In this document: positions 37,015-51,930 of the stretch, in pieces
Layout of the letters: every line of letters begins with the position of its first letter
How positions within the stretch are numbered: position 1 is the stretch's first letter
Assembly: GCF_000270185.1 (NCBI RefSeq)
Contig: NC_015516.1
Span: forward strand, 62,001-126,000
From: Melissococcus plutonius ATCC 35311
GTDB lineage: Bacteria > Bacillota > Bacilli > Lactobacillales > Enterococcaceae
Direction: 5' to 3'
DNA length: 64,000 nt
Translations under genes and position numbers: made by a program
The notes under the pieces: generated by a model
The model's input: only the letters and a program-made list of their open reading frames with translations
Database searches by the model: none
What the model was told of the DNA's origin: nothing

Positions 37015-37662
37015 TTACTCTCCTTTGTATTCTTCTACATTGATAATTTCGTCTAACATTTGATAAACATTTGGATTATGCGTAGAGATAATAATGATTT
37101 TTTCTTTAGTTTGAAGTTTTAGAATTAATTCCATGATTTCCTGACTGTTCGTTTCATCTAAAGAGGCAGTGGGCTCATCCGCTAAAATAATGGGTGAATC
37201 TTTTAAGATAATCTTAGCAATAGCAACTCGCTGAGATTCTCCACCAGATAAGGTGAAAATTTTTCTACTCAAATCTAAAGTTAGATTTACTTGTCGCAGC
37301 GCTTCTTTCATTTTTTCTATTTTACTGGTTTTGATTAATTTTTGACCAATAAATGCTAAATCTAAGTTTTCTTTTATCGATTTATTTTCAATCAAGCCAT
37401 AATTTTGAAACAAATAACCAATATAATTTTTAAAATAATCTTTTTCTTTTATTTTTTTTAATGGAGTTCCTTCAACAATGACTTCTCCTTTGGTTGCTGT
37501 TTCTAGTTTGCCGATTATATTTAGTAAAGTCGTTTTTCCAGAACCAGAAGCACCGATCAGAGCATAGGTTTTTCCATTTAAAAATTGATAACTAAGCTGA
37601 TTAAAAATGACATTATCATCGAAACATTTATTTACATTTTTTAGTTCAATCATATCATTCAC
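37015..37662 (-). CDS. ABC ATPase of bacteriocin-associated exporter
   Basis: 215 residues of the MacB/LolD-like class. Walker A GASGSGKTT near 37, Q loop LFQNYGLI near 83, signature LSGGESQRV near 137, Walker B IILADEPTASLD near 158 and switch His STHNPNV near 193. It overlaps the end of the upstream membrane-protein gene by eight bases. With the large DUF1430-like membrane protein it forms the transporter typically found next to lactococcin-972-type bacteriocins. It appears intact while its partner is broken. Confidence 0.9.
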   Translation of the reverse strand: MNDMIELKNVNKCFDDNVIFNQLSYQFLNGKTYALIGASGSGKTTLLNIIGKLETATKGEVIVEGTPLKKIKEKDYFKNYIGYLFQNYGLIENKSIKENLDLAFIGQKLIKTSKIEKMKEALRQVNLTLDLSRKIFTLSGGESQRVAIAKIILKDSPIILADEPTASLDETNSQEIMELILKLQTKEKIIIISTHNPNVYQMLDEIINVEEYKGE

Positions 37663-38705
37663 CCTTTAGATATAAAATATTTAGTTGCTTTTCTCTTTTT
37701 AATTGAATTGAGAATATACTTAAAATCAATAATAGGTAGATTATTGGTGTGAGTGTTACTAAAAGATAGGCACGTAAAAATAGACAAATTAGGGTAATAA
37801 AGACATTAATAGCAACCACTACGATTAAATAATTTTTATGTATAGCAAGCATTGATTTTCCTGCTAACCTTTCAATAAAAAATTTTTTTCTCCCTTGATA
37901 AAAATAAATTGTATTGATTAACATCAATAATAAAATGGAACTGACAATACTAATAATCGTTGAAATAAGCAATATTTCTTTTTTATTTTTAACTGAATTA
38001 AATTTTTCATTGATCGAGAATAAACCATTTGTTAATGATCCCATATACGAAGTTAAATTATTTTTTTTAATAAATTCGGTGACTTTTGTCGGCTGTGTGA
38101 TTCGAACATTCCAACCATCTGGATACATGGCTAGGTTAGAATAGGGCGTTCCTACAACAATAATTGGATGATGCACAAAACATTCATTAGATGTCAATTG
38201 TCCACCATTGCTAAATACAGGATAAACAAAGACATTAGCGCTATTCTCATACAATCCAGCTGTTGTTTTTATGTTTGCATTGACAACTTTATTATCTTTA
38301 GCAGATGATTTTGCTTCGTTTTCTATATTGTTTATCCATTTTTTCTTTAAAAAAGAGTAATTATTCTTCTGAGTTTCTGGTATTAATATGAAGTTTTCAA
38401 AAGGGGAAAGATTATTAATCTTGTTTCTTAATTGTTTAGATAGTTTAATAGGACTATATTTGATAAACGTATTGCTAACATATAAAACATTTGAAGTCTG
38501 ATCTGGATTAGTTGATGATGTAATACTATCTAAATTGTTCTGTATGATCATCATATCTATAGAATGATATAATTGTTTATAGGCTTCTCTTTTTTTTCTC
38601 TTTTGTAACGGATTCACCATCTTCAAGTTGGGTTATTTGAAATAATTGAGGATACTTTTCCCAAGCATGTTTACCTGCTTGTAGGAGAGACAGCTCATTA
38701 TTCAT
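37655..38705 (-). pseudogene. Bacteriocin-associated integral membrane protein, C-terminal half, frameshifted
   Basis: The frame that begins at ATG 38705 (MNNELSLLQAGKHAWEKYPQ) leaves register at an eight-base T run on the plus strand (A run in the gene) at 38590-38597. With seven A residues it would run on as TKEKKREAYKQLYHSIDMM to the stop at 37655. It contains an extracellular part (NVFVYPVFSNGGQ, NVRITQPTKVTEFIKKNN) and three or four C-terminal helices. ATG 38705 overlaps the stop of the N-terminal half (ATGA). Single family members (DUF1430, bacteriocin-associated 7-TM proteins) are about 650-700 residues, the sum of the two halves, so they probably derive from one gene. Confidence 0.75.
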
Positions 38706-39619
38706 TTCATGGCCCCATAAACACAATACATGAGTGAAGCTAACGTAAAGATTTGCATGACAAAAACCATTAAATAAATCAACTTCATAGGTGCTTTTCC
38801 TTTAATCGATAGATTAATCGGTTGATTTTGAAGAATATAATAGAATAAATTAGAAAGAAAAAAATTTATTATAAGGAGTAAGAAAAGCCAACACAGAATT
38901 GGAAAAGTAATGACTAGAAAGCATTCAATAGATAAAAAATTAAAAATTTTCAAGACAATAATTATGCTAAAGAGTATGACAAGAGTATATACGATGAGGA
39001 ATAAACTATCTTTATATGTACTTTGAAGTGCAATTGTGTGTTTGCCCTCACCTGACAATCGTCGAATCCCTATTGATCTAATATTCGAAATATACTCTGC
39101 TAGTATTAAAGAAGAAAAAGCAATGAGTAAGACTAGGATGATCATTAAAACTTGGGGAATAGAACTGAGCAACTTTAATAGGATAAGTCGATAATTCGTT
39201 GGAAAAACTATTGCTTGATTGTTTAGGGCATTTAATTTTTTGGCAAGTTCTTTAACTGTTAATCTACCTTTAACAATAATATATAGCGTATTAACTGGAC
39301 TATTCTTGATCAGCTTTTTATTTTTTTGCAAGGGTAAATTAGAAGGTAGTTCTCCTTTACCAATTGGAACATAGGTATTTTCTACTTCTCCACTAAAATT
39401 ATTCTTTGCCTCTACAATTCTTTGAGCGATAAGGTTATCATTATCTTCTGCTATTTTTTTAATGTCTTTCTTAAAGTTAACAGTAGACTTCTCAACAGAT
39501 ACGACTTCTTTTTGACCACCAAACAATTGATTTTGATAATTTTTTAGAAAAAGTAATCCTAATAAAGCTATAAATAAAATAGTAATCATAGCTAGTAATT
39601 TTTTTAGTTTATTATACAT
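38702..39619 (-). pseudogene. Bacteriocin-associated integral membrane protein, N-terminal half
   Basis: 305 residues: one helix at the start (about 8-25), an extracellular domain of about 120 residues (NTYVPIGKGELPSN, VNTLYIIVKGRLTVKELAKKLN), then four helices (about 155-175, 205-228, 230-255, 283-303) with the cytoplasmic motif EYISNIRSIGIRRLSGEGKHTI between them. That motif is a family mark of bacteriocin-associated 7-TM/DUF1430 proteins. AGGAGG (39631-39636) precedes the ATG. The stop follows AMK; inserting one A would fuse it to the next frame as AMKMNNELS. It is either a coupled two-gene arrangement or, more likely by length, one gene split by an indel. Confidence 0.72.
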
Positions 39620-46767: not shown

Positions 46768-48126
46768 TTATAAAGAGGTAGGAATAGTAATCTTTACTGA
46801 AGCACCATTCAAAATTTTTGAACGACCAAGTACTAAGTGACCATTTAGATGTTTACTATTATTTTTAGCAGTAGCTAATCCCATACCAAAATGATTGATT
46901 CCTGAGCGACTAGAATCTCCCATATATAATTCATCCGTTGCATGTACAAGAACTTCAGGAGTAAATCCCACGCCACTGTCTTCAATTTGAATAGAAAAGT
47001 TAGTATGATTACTAGTAATCGTTAACCAGATGTTTCCATTTATTGGTGTAAAGTCAACTGCATTAGAAAGAATATTAAACACAGCTTGGTGTAGGAGTTG
47101 ATAATCAAAGTTTACTATAGGATTGTCAATCTTCTCAATCGACTGAATAGAAATACTTTTTACCATTGCTAGATCGGTTATCTCTGTTTTCAACGCATAA
47201 GCAAAATTTTTTAAGTGATAAGATTGAATACTTTGTTCCATTTTTTTACTATCAAGCGTTAGTTCCATTAATGAGTTGACTAACTGCTCAATGGAAGCTT
47301 GATTGTTCTGTAATTTTTGGATGTATGCTGCTTGTTCCGTTGTAAGCACTGTTTCATTCAAAAGTTCTGACCAACCTATTGCACCAGTTAAAGGTGTCTT
47401 GATATCATGAATAAGTGCTGTAAGTTGTTGACGTTGTTTTTGTTCACTTTGCCATTTCTTTTCTAAAGCTTGCTGCAAAGAATTTTTCATTTCTTCAAAG
47501 CTTTCTAAAATTTGATTTAATTCTTTAATGTTTGAATGGCCAACTTGAAAATCTAAATCGTTATTTTCGATTTTTTTAACAGCAAGACCAATGGGCAAAA
47601 GTTCTTCCTTTATTTTTTTGGAAAGACTTCTAACCAATATAGTTACAATGAGAATAGCGTTGATGATACTTAATATTAGAATAAATTCTGGTGAAATAAA
47701 ATACTTGTTTAAAAAAGAATTTGTATACATCGCTTTAATTTTAAACGATAAAACGATTGTCTGGTTACCCATAGTTATACATGTAAAATGGGTATTTTTT
47801 TGTTTATTTGATTTCGCAAACTGGATGGCTTTTGTTTGTAAATTTTTTGGCATGTTGGTATCTTTTATTGTAAAGTTTTTTGATACTATAAGATACCTAT
47901 TTAAAGATGAAACATCTTTTTTATTAAATGTTTGTTCACTTGCTATTTTATTTATTAATGTTTGTGCGTCTTTTTCTCCCTGGTTTGCTGGAGTAATATA
48001 ACCAAGATTTAAGGAAATAAGAAATAGAGCAATAGGAATCAGTATTCCCATGGTTAGAAAAATACTTAATGAGAAAAGAAAGTTTATGAATAAGCGATTT
48101 AGTGAATAATTGCTTTTTATTTCCAT
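46768..48126 (-). CDS. HAMP-containing sensor histidine kinase, partner regulator truncated
   Basis: 452 residues from ATG 48126 (the GGTTACCTATG context overlaps the regulator's last codons; ATG 48144 lies inside the regulator). Helix at about 18-40, extracellular sensor of about 100 residues, helix at about 145-168, HAMP-like linker, HisKA with phospho-acceptor in LTALIHDIKTPLTGAIGWSE (His near 239), N box AVFNILSNAVDFTP, G1 IEDSGVGF and G2 FGMGLATAKN. All catalytic motifs are present. It overlaps the stop of the regulator relic (ATGGAAATAA), the usual order in such operons, but the regulator and its promoter region have been lost. Confidence 0.9.
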   Translation of the reverse strand: MEIKSNYSLNRLFINFLFSLSIFLTMGILIPIALFLISLNLGYITPANQGEKDAQTLINKIASEQTFNKKDVSSLNRYLIVSKNFTIKDTNMPKNLQTKAIQFAKSNKQKNTHFTCITMGNQTIVLSFKIKAMYTNSFLNKYFISPEFILILSIINAILIVTILVRSLSKKIKEELLPIGLAVKKIENNDLDFQVGHSNIKELNQILESFEEMKNSLQQALEKKWQSEQKQRQQLTALIHDIKTPLTGAIGWSELLNETVLTTEQAAYIQKLQNNQASIEQLVNSLMELTLDSKKMEQSIQSYHLKNFAYALKTEITDLAMVKSISIQSIEKIDNPIVNFDYQLLHQAVFNILSNAVDFTPINGNIWLTITSNHTNFSIQIEDSGVGFTPEVLVHATDELYMGDSSRSGINHFGMGLATAKNNSKHLNGHLVLGRSKILNGASVKITIPTSL

Positions 48127-48410
48127 AGGTAACCAATACCCCAATGTGTGTCTAAAGGAATCTTCTCTGAATGATTAAATTTACTTCTAATATTTTTAAC
48201 ATGAGTTGAAATCGATTGACTATCTCCTTTTGCATCATAACCAAAAATAGCTTCATAAATTTGATCTTTTGTAAATACCTGTCCATGATTTCGTGCTAAA
48301 AATTCACAAATTTCATACTCACTTTTTGTTAAATCTATGGGGAATTCTCGATAATATAAGATTTTTTGTGAAAGATTAAATCGTCTGATTCTAAAATATC
48401 CATTGATAGT
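48117..48410 (-). pseudogene. OmpR-type response regulator, receiver domain deleted
   Basis: The minus strand from about 48410 to the TAA at 48117-48119 encodes a complete winged-helix output domain (FRIRRFNLSQKILYY, IDLTKSEYEICEFLARNHGQ, VFTKDQIYEAIFGYDAKGD, ISTHVKNIRSKF, DTHWGIGYLWK). No start codon or RBS precedes it, and the roughly 120-residue receiver domain is absent. At 48410-48435 the sequence passes directly into the beheaded gene on the other strand. The kinase next to it has therefore lost its regulator. Confidence 0.88.
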
Positions 48411-48434
48411 TCAAAATTATTTCAAACACCTACA

Positions 48435-49289
48435 TTGGCATTTGGTGGTGGCTTAAATGAAACTCAGGAAAAAGCCGTTGGAGATGTTTTAAAAATCAAA
48501 GAACAAAATTATAAAACTTTAAAAGTGGAAGGCAGCGACGTAGATCATTACTTACATATCATTGGAGCAAAGACATCTGGACTATTTTCTTCTGTTTACA
48601 TAACACGTACAGTTAGAGAGGGACAAAATGTTGTCAAGGTGTTAACACCTAAGAATATTGTTTTAGTTACAGAAGCAGGATATACAACACCTCTAACTAC
48701 TGCTGGTGTCTCGAATTTAGAAATTCGGGTGGCTTCATTGGATTCTGTGGGTCCAGTATCAGGAGAATCTGCATTGGCTGGCCTTTATAAAGCACTGGAA
48801 GACCAGGGAGTGACCTTAAACCCGGATAAAGTTTATACAGCACAAGAAGAGCTGCAAACAACAGCATCCATTATAGATAATACAGGAATGAAAGATAAAT
48901 CTTATGAAGATAAAGCCAAAATGGATACTCAATTATCTGCTATCTTAACTGAAATTAAGACCCAATTAGCAGAAATTAAGGATAAACAAGTCACTGATCA
49001 ACAGATTGAGGAAATTGTAAATCATGCAATAAAAAATGCAAGATTGGAAGATAAATTGAATAAGGAAGATATTCAAAGATTGGTCTCTCTGTCCAAGGTA
49101 TATATTCAAAATAAAAATTCAATTTTAGATAAGGAAAGTATTTCTCGTTATAAAAAATTAGCACATAATATCACAAAAGACCTACAAGATAAATACGGTG
49201 TACAGATGGAACAAGCAAAAGGTTTTCTTGCAACAGCTTTTGAAAGTATAAAAGCCTTTTTCGGTGGCTTGTTTGGTAACCATTTATAA
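48435..49289 (+). pseudogene. DUF1002 protein missing its signal peptide
   Basis: The frame contains the DUF1002 body: TLAFGGGLNETQEKAVGDVL near the start, YLHIIGAKTSGLFSSVYITR, NIVLVTEAGYTTPLTTAGVSNLEI, ASLDSVGPVSGESALAGLYKALE, then a long helical C-terminal part ending in an amphipathic GFLATAFESIKAFFGGLFGN segment. Homology seems to begin at about 48423 with no start, RBS or signal peptide; the TTG at 48435 is only a possible start. Family members are secreted proteins of about 300 residues and unknown role. The deletion that removed the neighbouring regulator's front also removed this gene's promoter and signal sequence. Confidence 0.85.
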
Positions 49290-49376: not shown

Positions 49377-49958
49377 TTAACCTATTTTTTGTTCAAAGAT
49401 GACTTTTTTGAGTATTGGATATTTTCTTAACGAACAAATTAAATAAACTAAATTAGAAATAGAATAAATTGCCCAAGTATACCATGTATTATTGGCTCTA
49501 AAGATATGATAAGGCTCTAAGATATCGCTGAGAATTTCTTTCGTGATCTCCTCAAATGTACCATGGAAAGAAATGGGAACAGCATCGATTAAAACACCAA
49601 TGATAATCTGAAAGATAAACAATAATAACCATCCAACTAGATAGCTTGTGCCACCCTTAGAAAAAATAATCTTTTCATAAATTTGTTTCTCCTCACCTAC
49701 ATCATTTGTATAAAAATATTTTTGAATATTTTTTTCATAGACCTAAGTGTTCAGTGTCTGAAAAATCCCAATTCCAGTGGCAACTATGAAAATAGTCAAT
49801 AAAATAAAAAAATTACGATTTGAAAAATAAAACGAACGATAAAAAAGAACAAATGTAATGATTGGTAATGTCAAAAGACTAAATCTTGAAACCTTTGAAA
49901 ATTCAAATTGTTCATAAATAAAATATAAAATGGCTCCTATGATTAAAATAAACTGCAT
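49377..49958 (-). pseudogene. Multi-pass membrane protein interrupted by TAG
   Basis: ATG 49958 follows a strong GGAGG. The frame runs through three or four helices to a TAG at 49743-49745 (after FQTLNT), continues in the same frame with VYEKNIQKYFYTNDVGEEKQ and GGTSYLVGW, then a helix (LLLFIFQIIIGVLIDAV) and a C-terminal part to 49377. The joined protein is 193 codons. The continuous frame on both sides of the stop and the hydrophilic, protein-like bridge make a nonsense mutation the best reading. No family is recognised. Confidence 0.75.
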
Positions 49959-50465
49959 TTTTCCTCCGATAAATAGATTTAAAAATAAAAATATCAAATT
50001 AAAATTTATTTATTTTTCAAGAGTATTATACAAAATAAATAAAACTATTTGATATTTATTTGGTTGTTGTATTTTTTAGTTAGCCATATCAAGCTGAGAT
50101 TTAATTTTTATATGGCTGTTATTTTACACTTCATTTGTAGATTAAGCAATATTACTATTAATGATAATTATTGATTTTTATTCATCTTATTCTGAGTAGT
50201 GAATAAAGTTTAATATTTTTCAATTTTATGAAAAGTTTAAAATTATTTTTAGAATGGAAAATAGGATCTGAAATTCTTCAACTCATTATTAAAATAACTA
50301 TTAGCTAAAAAAGAGAAGTTTGTTAGTAGAATGCTGAAACGATTCATAAATTTATATTATAAATAATGATAATAATATATATAAATAGGTATTAGGTGAA
50401 AACAATTAATAATTATATTAATTTTTAATCGTTTTTTTATTTAACAAAATATAATTTATATCTTA
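49959..50465. other. Gap upstream of arabinoside operon
   Basis: AT-rich, no gene. Holds the regulatory region that ends in the promoter at 50466. Confidence 0.4.
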
Positions 50466-50495
50466 TTGACAACGCTTACTACAAAAATATATAAT
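50466..50495 (+). promoter_or_regulatory. Promoter with overlapping cre-like site
   Basis: TTGACA (50466-50471) and TATAAT (50490-50495), 18 bases apart. The stretch TGACAACGCTTACT (50467-50480) matches the CcpA cre consensus TGWAANCGNTNWCA at all but two specified positions and covers the -35 box, so CcpA binding would block transcription when preferred sugars are present. It lies about 200 bases ahead of the arabinoside operon. Confidence 0.6.
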
Positions 50496-50699
50496 GAGGA
50501 TATATTAATGTTTATATTTATAAAAAAGAGCATATATATATTGAAATTTAGTAGTTTCTTTTTTATTTTGATATTGCTAGAAAATTTTTATCTTTACTTA
50601 ATAGATATGTTAAAAATATGAGATTACTTCAAAGTTTGCTTCTAGAATTTACTTCTATTGAATAGATAGAAAGATTAAATGATAAAGGAGAGGAAGAGA

Positions 50700-51930
50700 A
50701 TGAAGAAAAAAGTGGTTTACAGTATTATGATAGTTGGTTTTTTCTTATTATTAACTGCCTGTAGTCAGCAAAAAGAATCTAAAACGATTACATTTTGGAA
50801 TCCTCTTGTAGGAGACGACGGTACATATATGAATAGTATGGTAAAAGCATACAATAAAACAAAGCCAGAATATCCAATTTATGCAGTTGTAAGTTCAGAT
50901 ATGTATACTAAAATTTATTCTGTTATGGCGTCTAAAAAAGATATTCCTGATCTAGCTATTATTCATGCAGATCGAGTACCCGGATTTGCTAAAGCAAATA
51001 TGTTAGATAATATGGACAATGTTATGAAATGGCAGCCGAATATTAAAAAATCAAATTATATTCCGCAGGCATGGAAAGCGGGAACCTATAAAAATGTCCA
51101 GTATACAGTTCCTTTAGATATCCATTCTAGTGCAATGTATTATAACAAGGATTTATTAAAAAAGTATGGCATTACACACTTTTTAGATGACGGGGTAGTG
51201 ACATTTGATGAAATGCTTTCTTTACAAGGAAAAATGAAACCTGGAGATTTTGTTGTAAATAACGCTTTGCTTTCTTGGGTAATTCTATCCAATCTAGTCA
51301 ATTATGGAGGAGATATCAAAGATTCAAAAGGAAACCCAACATTAGATACGCCAGGGATGAAAAAAAACGCTTGAATCAATTAAGCAGTTAGCAGATGAAA
51401 AGTTAATGACACCAAATGGAGAAGATGGTTATCTTATGTTTCAGTCTGGACATGTTTTGTTTTCTAAAGATGGCATATGGACATCTACCGCTCATGATAA
51501 GGTCAAAGGGTTAAATTATGGTGTAACTAATGTTTATTCGCCAAGTCCTAATAAGATAAACAATCGAGGCTCTTCACATATGTTTGCATTATTAAAAAAT
51601 AAAGCGAGAACAAAAGAAAAAGAAAAAGGAATTGCAAAATTTTTAGAATATATACGAAATAATTCAATGGAATGGGCAAAAGCTGGGCAAGTTGTTGCAA
51701 GTAAAAAGGTTTATGAAGCACCAGAATTTAAAAAATACCCACAATCTTTTTTCACTTCCAGTAAAAAAGAACTTGATTCTTTACATGTCTTTACGTATGT
51801 CTATTATCCATATGTTCAAAAAGCGATTGATACATATTGTTTTGATATTGTGTACAACAATATTAGTATCGATGAAGGAATGAAAAAAATGCAACAATTT
51901 GTAACAGACCAGGTGAATGCAATTAAGTAA
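50700..51930 (+). pseudogene. Arabinoside-binding lipoprotein of ABC importer, frameshifted
   Basis: A family-1 extracellular solute-binding protein of about 409 residues split at an A8 run, 51360-51367. The first frame (ATG 50700, RBS GGAG) has the lipobox LTAC near residue 20, TITFWNPLVGDDG and PDLAIIHADRVPGFAK. After removal of one A it continues MKKTLESIKQLADEKLMTPN to the stop at 51930, with GYLMFQSGHVLFSKDGIWTS. TTG/ATG 51406 is not a real start. Without the second lobe no substrate would be delivered to the permeases, so the importer is dead unless slippage or a sequencing error explains the extra A. Confidence 0.88.

Follow-up and report, generated by a model that had tools for sequence, protein, structure and literature searches.

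A probable deletion junction between a response-regulator remnant and a headless DUF1002 gene in Melissococcus plutonius ATCC 35311

Lantibiotic protection operons and related loci

The closest described counterparts of the locus treated here are the lanFEG-RR-HK lantibiotic protection operons of the Mut/Pcf/Nis/Spa type, which are found in streptococci, enterococci, and clostridia and contain a response regulator (RR) and a sensor histidine kinase (HK). In the usual architecture among relatives, the RR-HK pair closes a five-gene operon, lanF-lanE-lanG-RR-HK; the genes preceding it were recognized as lantibiotic ATPase TIGR03740 (395.5 bits), MutE (302.1 bits), and MutG (256.4 bits). F-E-G are present upstream of RR-HK in 33 of the 41 relatives of the kinase tree, while one has part of G and seven have none of these genes. 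The five-gene module is also found on a conjugative plasmid of E. faecium, as pcfF-pcfE-mutG-RR-HK flanked by IS6-family elements, and is therefore regarded as mobile. When plasmids were searched for DNA similarity, the sole match was a frameshifted, unannotated RR remnant of the same clade as that of M. plutonius on a Lactococcus garvieae plasmid (L223:6935-7587); no kinase of the M. plutonius clade was detected near it in a 14 kb stretch.

The second gene concerned encodes a DUF1002 protein (PF06207), known from secreted proteins of Lactobacillales. In the sampled relatives this gene adjoins other genes, such as those of a CAAX protease or a penicillin-binding protein. Among 54 inspected kinase loci, DUF1002 lies within the stretch read in one (L088), where it is encoded on the strand of the RR, approximately 5.5 kb ahead of it; in none of the relatives' loci read is the RR-HK pair directly beside DUF1002.

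Melissococcus plutonius is a pathogen of the honeybee, and its genomes carry 75-156 pseudogenes each, which have been attributed to frameshifts and premature stops (PMC6116112). The window analyzed is a stretch of 64,000 nucleotides of strain ATCC 35311 (contig NC_015516.1, positions 62,001 to 126,000); the plasmid DNA belonging to this genome matches M. plutonius plasmids at 98.7-100% identity. The kinase encoded in it falls into the RR-HK clade, where it forks with its two nearest relatives, L126 and L127, with support values of 99/98; its terminal branch is long (1.45), and even these relatives are only 33% identical. In both, the gene immediately ahead of the RR encodes a Spa1_C (SpaI/NisI-type) immunity lipoprotein; of the two, only L127 also possesses F-E-G.

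Two truncated genes at one junction

The features of the locus, together with a second lanthipeptide locus of the same genome, are listed below.

Table 1. Features at the junction (window coordinates) and the second lanthipeptide locus
Feature	Position	Strand	Evidence or content
Sensor histidine kinase, intact, 452 aa, whose ATG overlaps the RR frame at its end	46768..48126	-	HisKA + HATPase_c; catalytic motifs aligned with relatives
RR remnant, OmpR/PhoB-type DNA-binding domain only, without start codon	48117..48383	-	Trans_reg_C 1.8e-19, no Response_reg (Pfam)
Probable deletion junction, a stretch that cannot be confidently attributed to one gene or the other	48384..48422	.	RR profile alignment begins at 48383; DUF1002 profile confident only from ~48423
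DUF1002 gene without start, RBS, or signal peptide; domain nearly complete, no internal stop	48423..49289	+	Pfam DUF1002 1.5e-37, profile 2-203/220
Decayed lanthipeptide locus	L125:7673-12477 = chromosome ~1550672-1555476 (1.5505-1.5555 Mb)		LanC C-terminal fragment, RR, HK, divergent lanF-lanE-lanG

The RR remnant retains the C-terminal winged-helix domain typical of the OmpR/PhoB family (Trans_reg_C, 70 bits). In the alignment with a profile built from intact relatives (219 model positions), only the part from position 132 onward is matched, and neither Pfam nor this profile detects upstream of it the N-terminal receiver domain with the phosphoacceptor Asp, which bears out an earlier note on this DNA in that only the DNA-binding part has been kept. 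The frame holds no ATG, GTG, TTG, or CTG, and approximately 129-132 codons of the coding sequence are lost. No orphan receiver domain was found elsewhere in the genome with a full-length RR of a relative as query. The best explanation is that the RR protein could no longer be produced after a deletion.

On the other side of the junction, the DUF1002 domain scores 129.8 bits and is the only one encoded in the genome. The family profile of full-length relatives aligns confidently with the frame only from the point given in Table 1, which is preceded in the relatives by 34-51 residues (in one of them by 78), signal peptide included; relative to most of them, some 41-49 codons have been lost. The first common in-frame start codon is TTG at 48435, and no RBS was seen upstream of it. 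The signal peptide is missing in comparison with the aligned family members, and the absence of signal peptide, start, and RBS, claimed before from the bare frame, is upheld. That the protein can no longer be exported would be the best explanation of this sequence.

The kinase frame is open over 452 amino acids from the ATG at 48126 and includes the H box (HDIKTP), the N box (NILSNA), and the DSGVGF and GMGLA motifs, so that the claim of a full set of catalytic motifs holds in the alignment with relatives. The further claim that this kinase has lost both partner and promoter is to be divided: the loss of the partner is evident from the missing receiver domain of the RR, while that of the promoter would follow from the operon structure. 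Left without its RR, the kinase is now an orphan, and its transcription is probably low.

According to the profile alignments built from intact relatives, the homology edges of the RR and the DUF1002 gene are at most ~40 bp apart, with the minus-strand RR and the plus-strand DUF1002 frame pointing away from each other and both being devoid of their 5' ends. Two headless genes do meet at one junction, as had been proposed. The position given for it earlier, 48410-48435, lies ~20-30 bp too far to the right for the RR edge. The shared promoter region that had been ascribed to the two genes is not supported, the arrangement being present in no sampled relative. A promoter scan returned 24 sites versus 28.2 in shuffles, with no excess. 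The exact junction sequence has no match in viral contigs, and no description of the RR/DUF1002 junction was found in the literature.

Origin of the junction

It is likely, judging from the sequence, that one deletion joined the interior of the RR gene to the interior of the oppositely oriented DUF1002 gene. A single deletion is the simplest reading because the two edges lie within ~40 bp, both frames are open, and no receiver domain is present elsewhere in the genome; the open state of the remaining RR and DUF1002 frames is also consistent with a recent event. Such a deletion would have deprived the RR of its receiver domain and start, and DUF1002 of its promoter, start, and signal peptide, and, by analogy with the relatives, would probably also have taken upstream lantibiotic-protection or immunity genes along with the operon promoter. 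Regarding its size, the half kilobase suggested in the earlier note is a minimum only: the lost codons of the RR and DUF1002 amount to at least ~515-540 nt of coding sequence, and the deletion would have comprised at least ~0.5 kb. Since an operon is usual upstream of RR-HK in relatives and the nearest pair has a Spa1_C gene there, several kilobases may be gone; comparison with the usual operon suggests a loss of 2.6 kb or more if M. plutonius once possessed it. Ancestral operon content is uncertain on account of the long kinase branch, the 33% identity to the nearest relatives, and the seven of 41 relatives without F-E-G, one of the nearest included. The comparison rests on one M. plutonius chromosome, and the state before the deletion is reconstructed from more distant relatives.

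Evidence against a single deletion comes from those relatives, in none of which DUF1002 was found next to RR-HK. The same finding would be accommodated by an inversion or translocation breakpoint, by which the heads of both genes were relocated and possibly disappeared afterwards, and the head-to-head geometry would be expected at an inversion endpoint, too. Yet the genome contains no orphan receiver domain, and its sole lanFEG genes, those at 1.55 Mb, adjoin a different RR-HK pair having its own DNA-binding domain, so that a rearrangement of this kind is considered improbable. Still less probable are two separate truncations whose ends adjoin by chance, as might result from stepwise erosion of a region already silent. 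The surroundings are indeed rich in broken genes, but both frames are open and conserved, their ends lie so close together, and stepwise erosion would usually leave more unassignable sequence between such ends. An artefact of the reference assembly, finally, might be thought of as a single chromosome assembly was examined, but it is hardly credible for a complete genome of two contigs, with a junction that is without a repeat that would explain a collapse. Short direct repeats, as they might have marked the ends of the deletion, were sought in the present junction sequence, from which the ancestral ends are absent, and only chance-like pairs were obtained.

The region around the junction is in general decay. 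A membrane-protein frame of ~206 codons on the minus strand (49377-49997) has one internal stop, and the gene of a sugar ABC transporter solute-binding protein is split into two frames (50679-51927), upstream of which a perfect sigma-70 consensus, TTGACA-18-TATAAT, is located at 50466-50495. Farther away, at 37018-39619, a Lactococcin-972-type export ATPase is encoded beside a bacteriocin-associated membrane protein (TIGR01654), the latter being in two pieces (37658-39619; profile 1-314 and 363-681).

Lantibiotic sensing and comparison with known systems

Because RR-HK pairs of this clade accompany lantibiotic immunity genes, the function lost with the RR would most likely be the sensing of, and response to, lantibiotics. 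At the M. plutonius locus itself, neither lanFEG nor SpaI/NisI immunity genes are found beside RR-HK; Spa1_C was not found in the genome either, in a search made without a positive control. A genome search for lanF and lanG retrieved F-E-G only at 1.55 Mb, where an RR-HK pair and a C-terminal fragment of LanC are encoded opposite to these genes. The pair that they adjoin being another one, they need not be the missing part of the deleted locus.

The locus at 1.55 Mb has suffered lesions of its own, namely, an RR split by a frameshift and a LanF without ~20 residues ahead of the Walker A motif. Both lantibiotic loci recognized in M. plutonius ATCC 35311 are, hence, damaged. Apilactobacillus kunkeei, a symbiont of bees, has a nisin-type lantibiotic, kunkecin A, and this type strain is reported to rank among the bee-related microbes that are most sensitive to it (PMC7525160). 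Independent lesions at both loci might have cost M. plutonius lantibiotic sensing and protection and thereby explain its unusual sensitivity to kunkecin A; this is a tentative idea and rather unlikely to be correct, but if true, it would provide a concrete and testable link between gene decay and lantibiotic susceptibility. The scar matters mainly as a pointer to a trait likely to have been lost by a bee pathogen, lantibiotic sensing.

Summarizing, the M. plutonius RR-HK pair resembles that of the lanFEG-RR-HK operons in its identical gene order and overlap, with 50-57% identity to the DNA-binding domain of intact relatives and ~30% identity in the kinase, but differs by the missing RR head and by having neither FEG nor a SpaI-like gene at the site. 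The DUF1002 protein is nearly complete in its domain and up to 43% identical to members of this family, known from secreted proteins of Lactobacillales, while its gene, unlike theirs, is without start, RBS, and signal peptide. As a deletion the scar is routine, being a further example of the known reductive decay in a shrinking genome; it represents the same kind of gene loss, in the same species, as the described M. plutonius pseudogenes (PMC6116112), from which it is distinguished as a probable deletion striking two genes at once.
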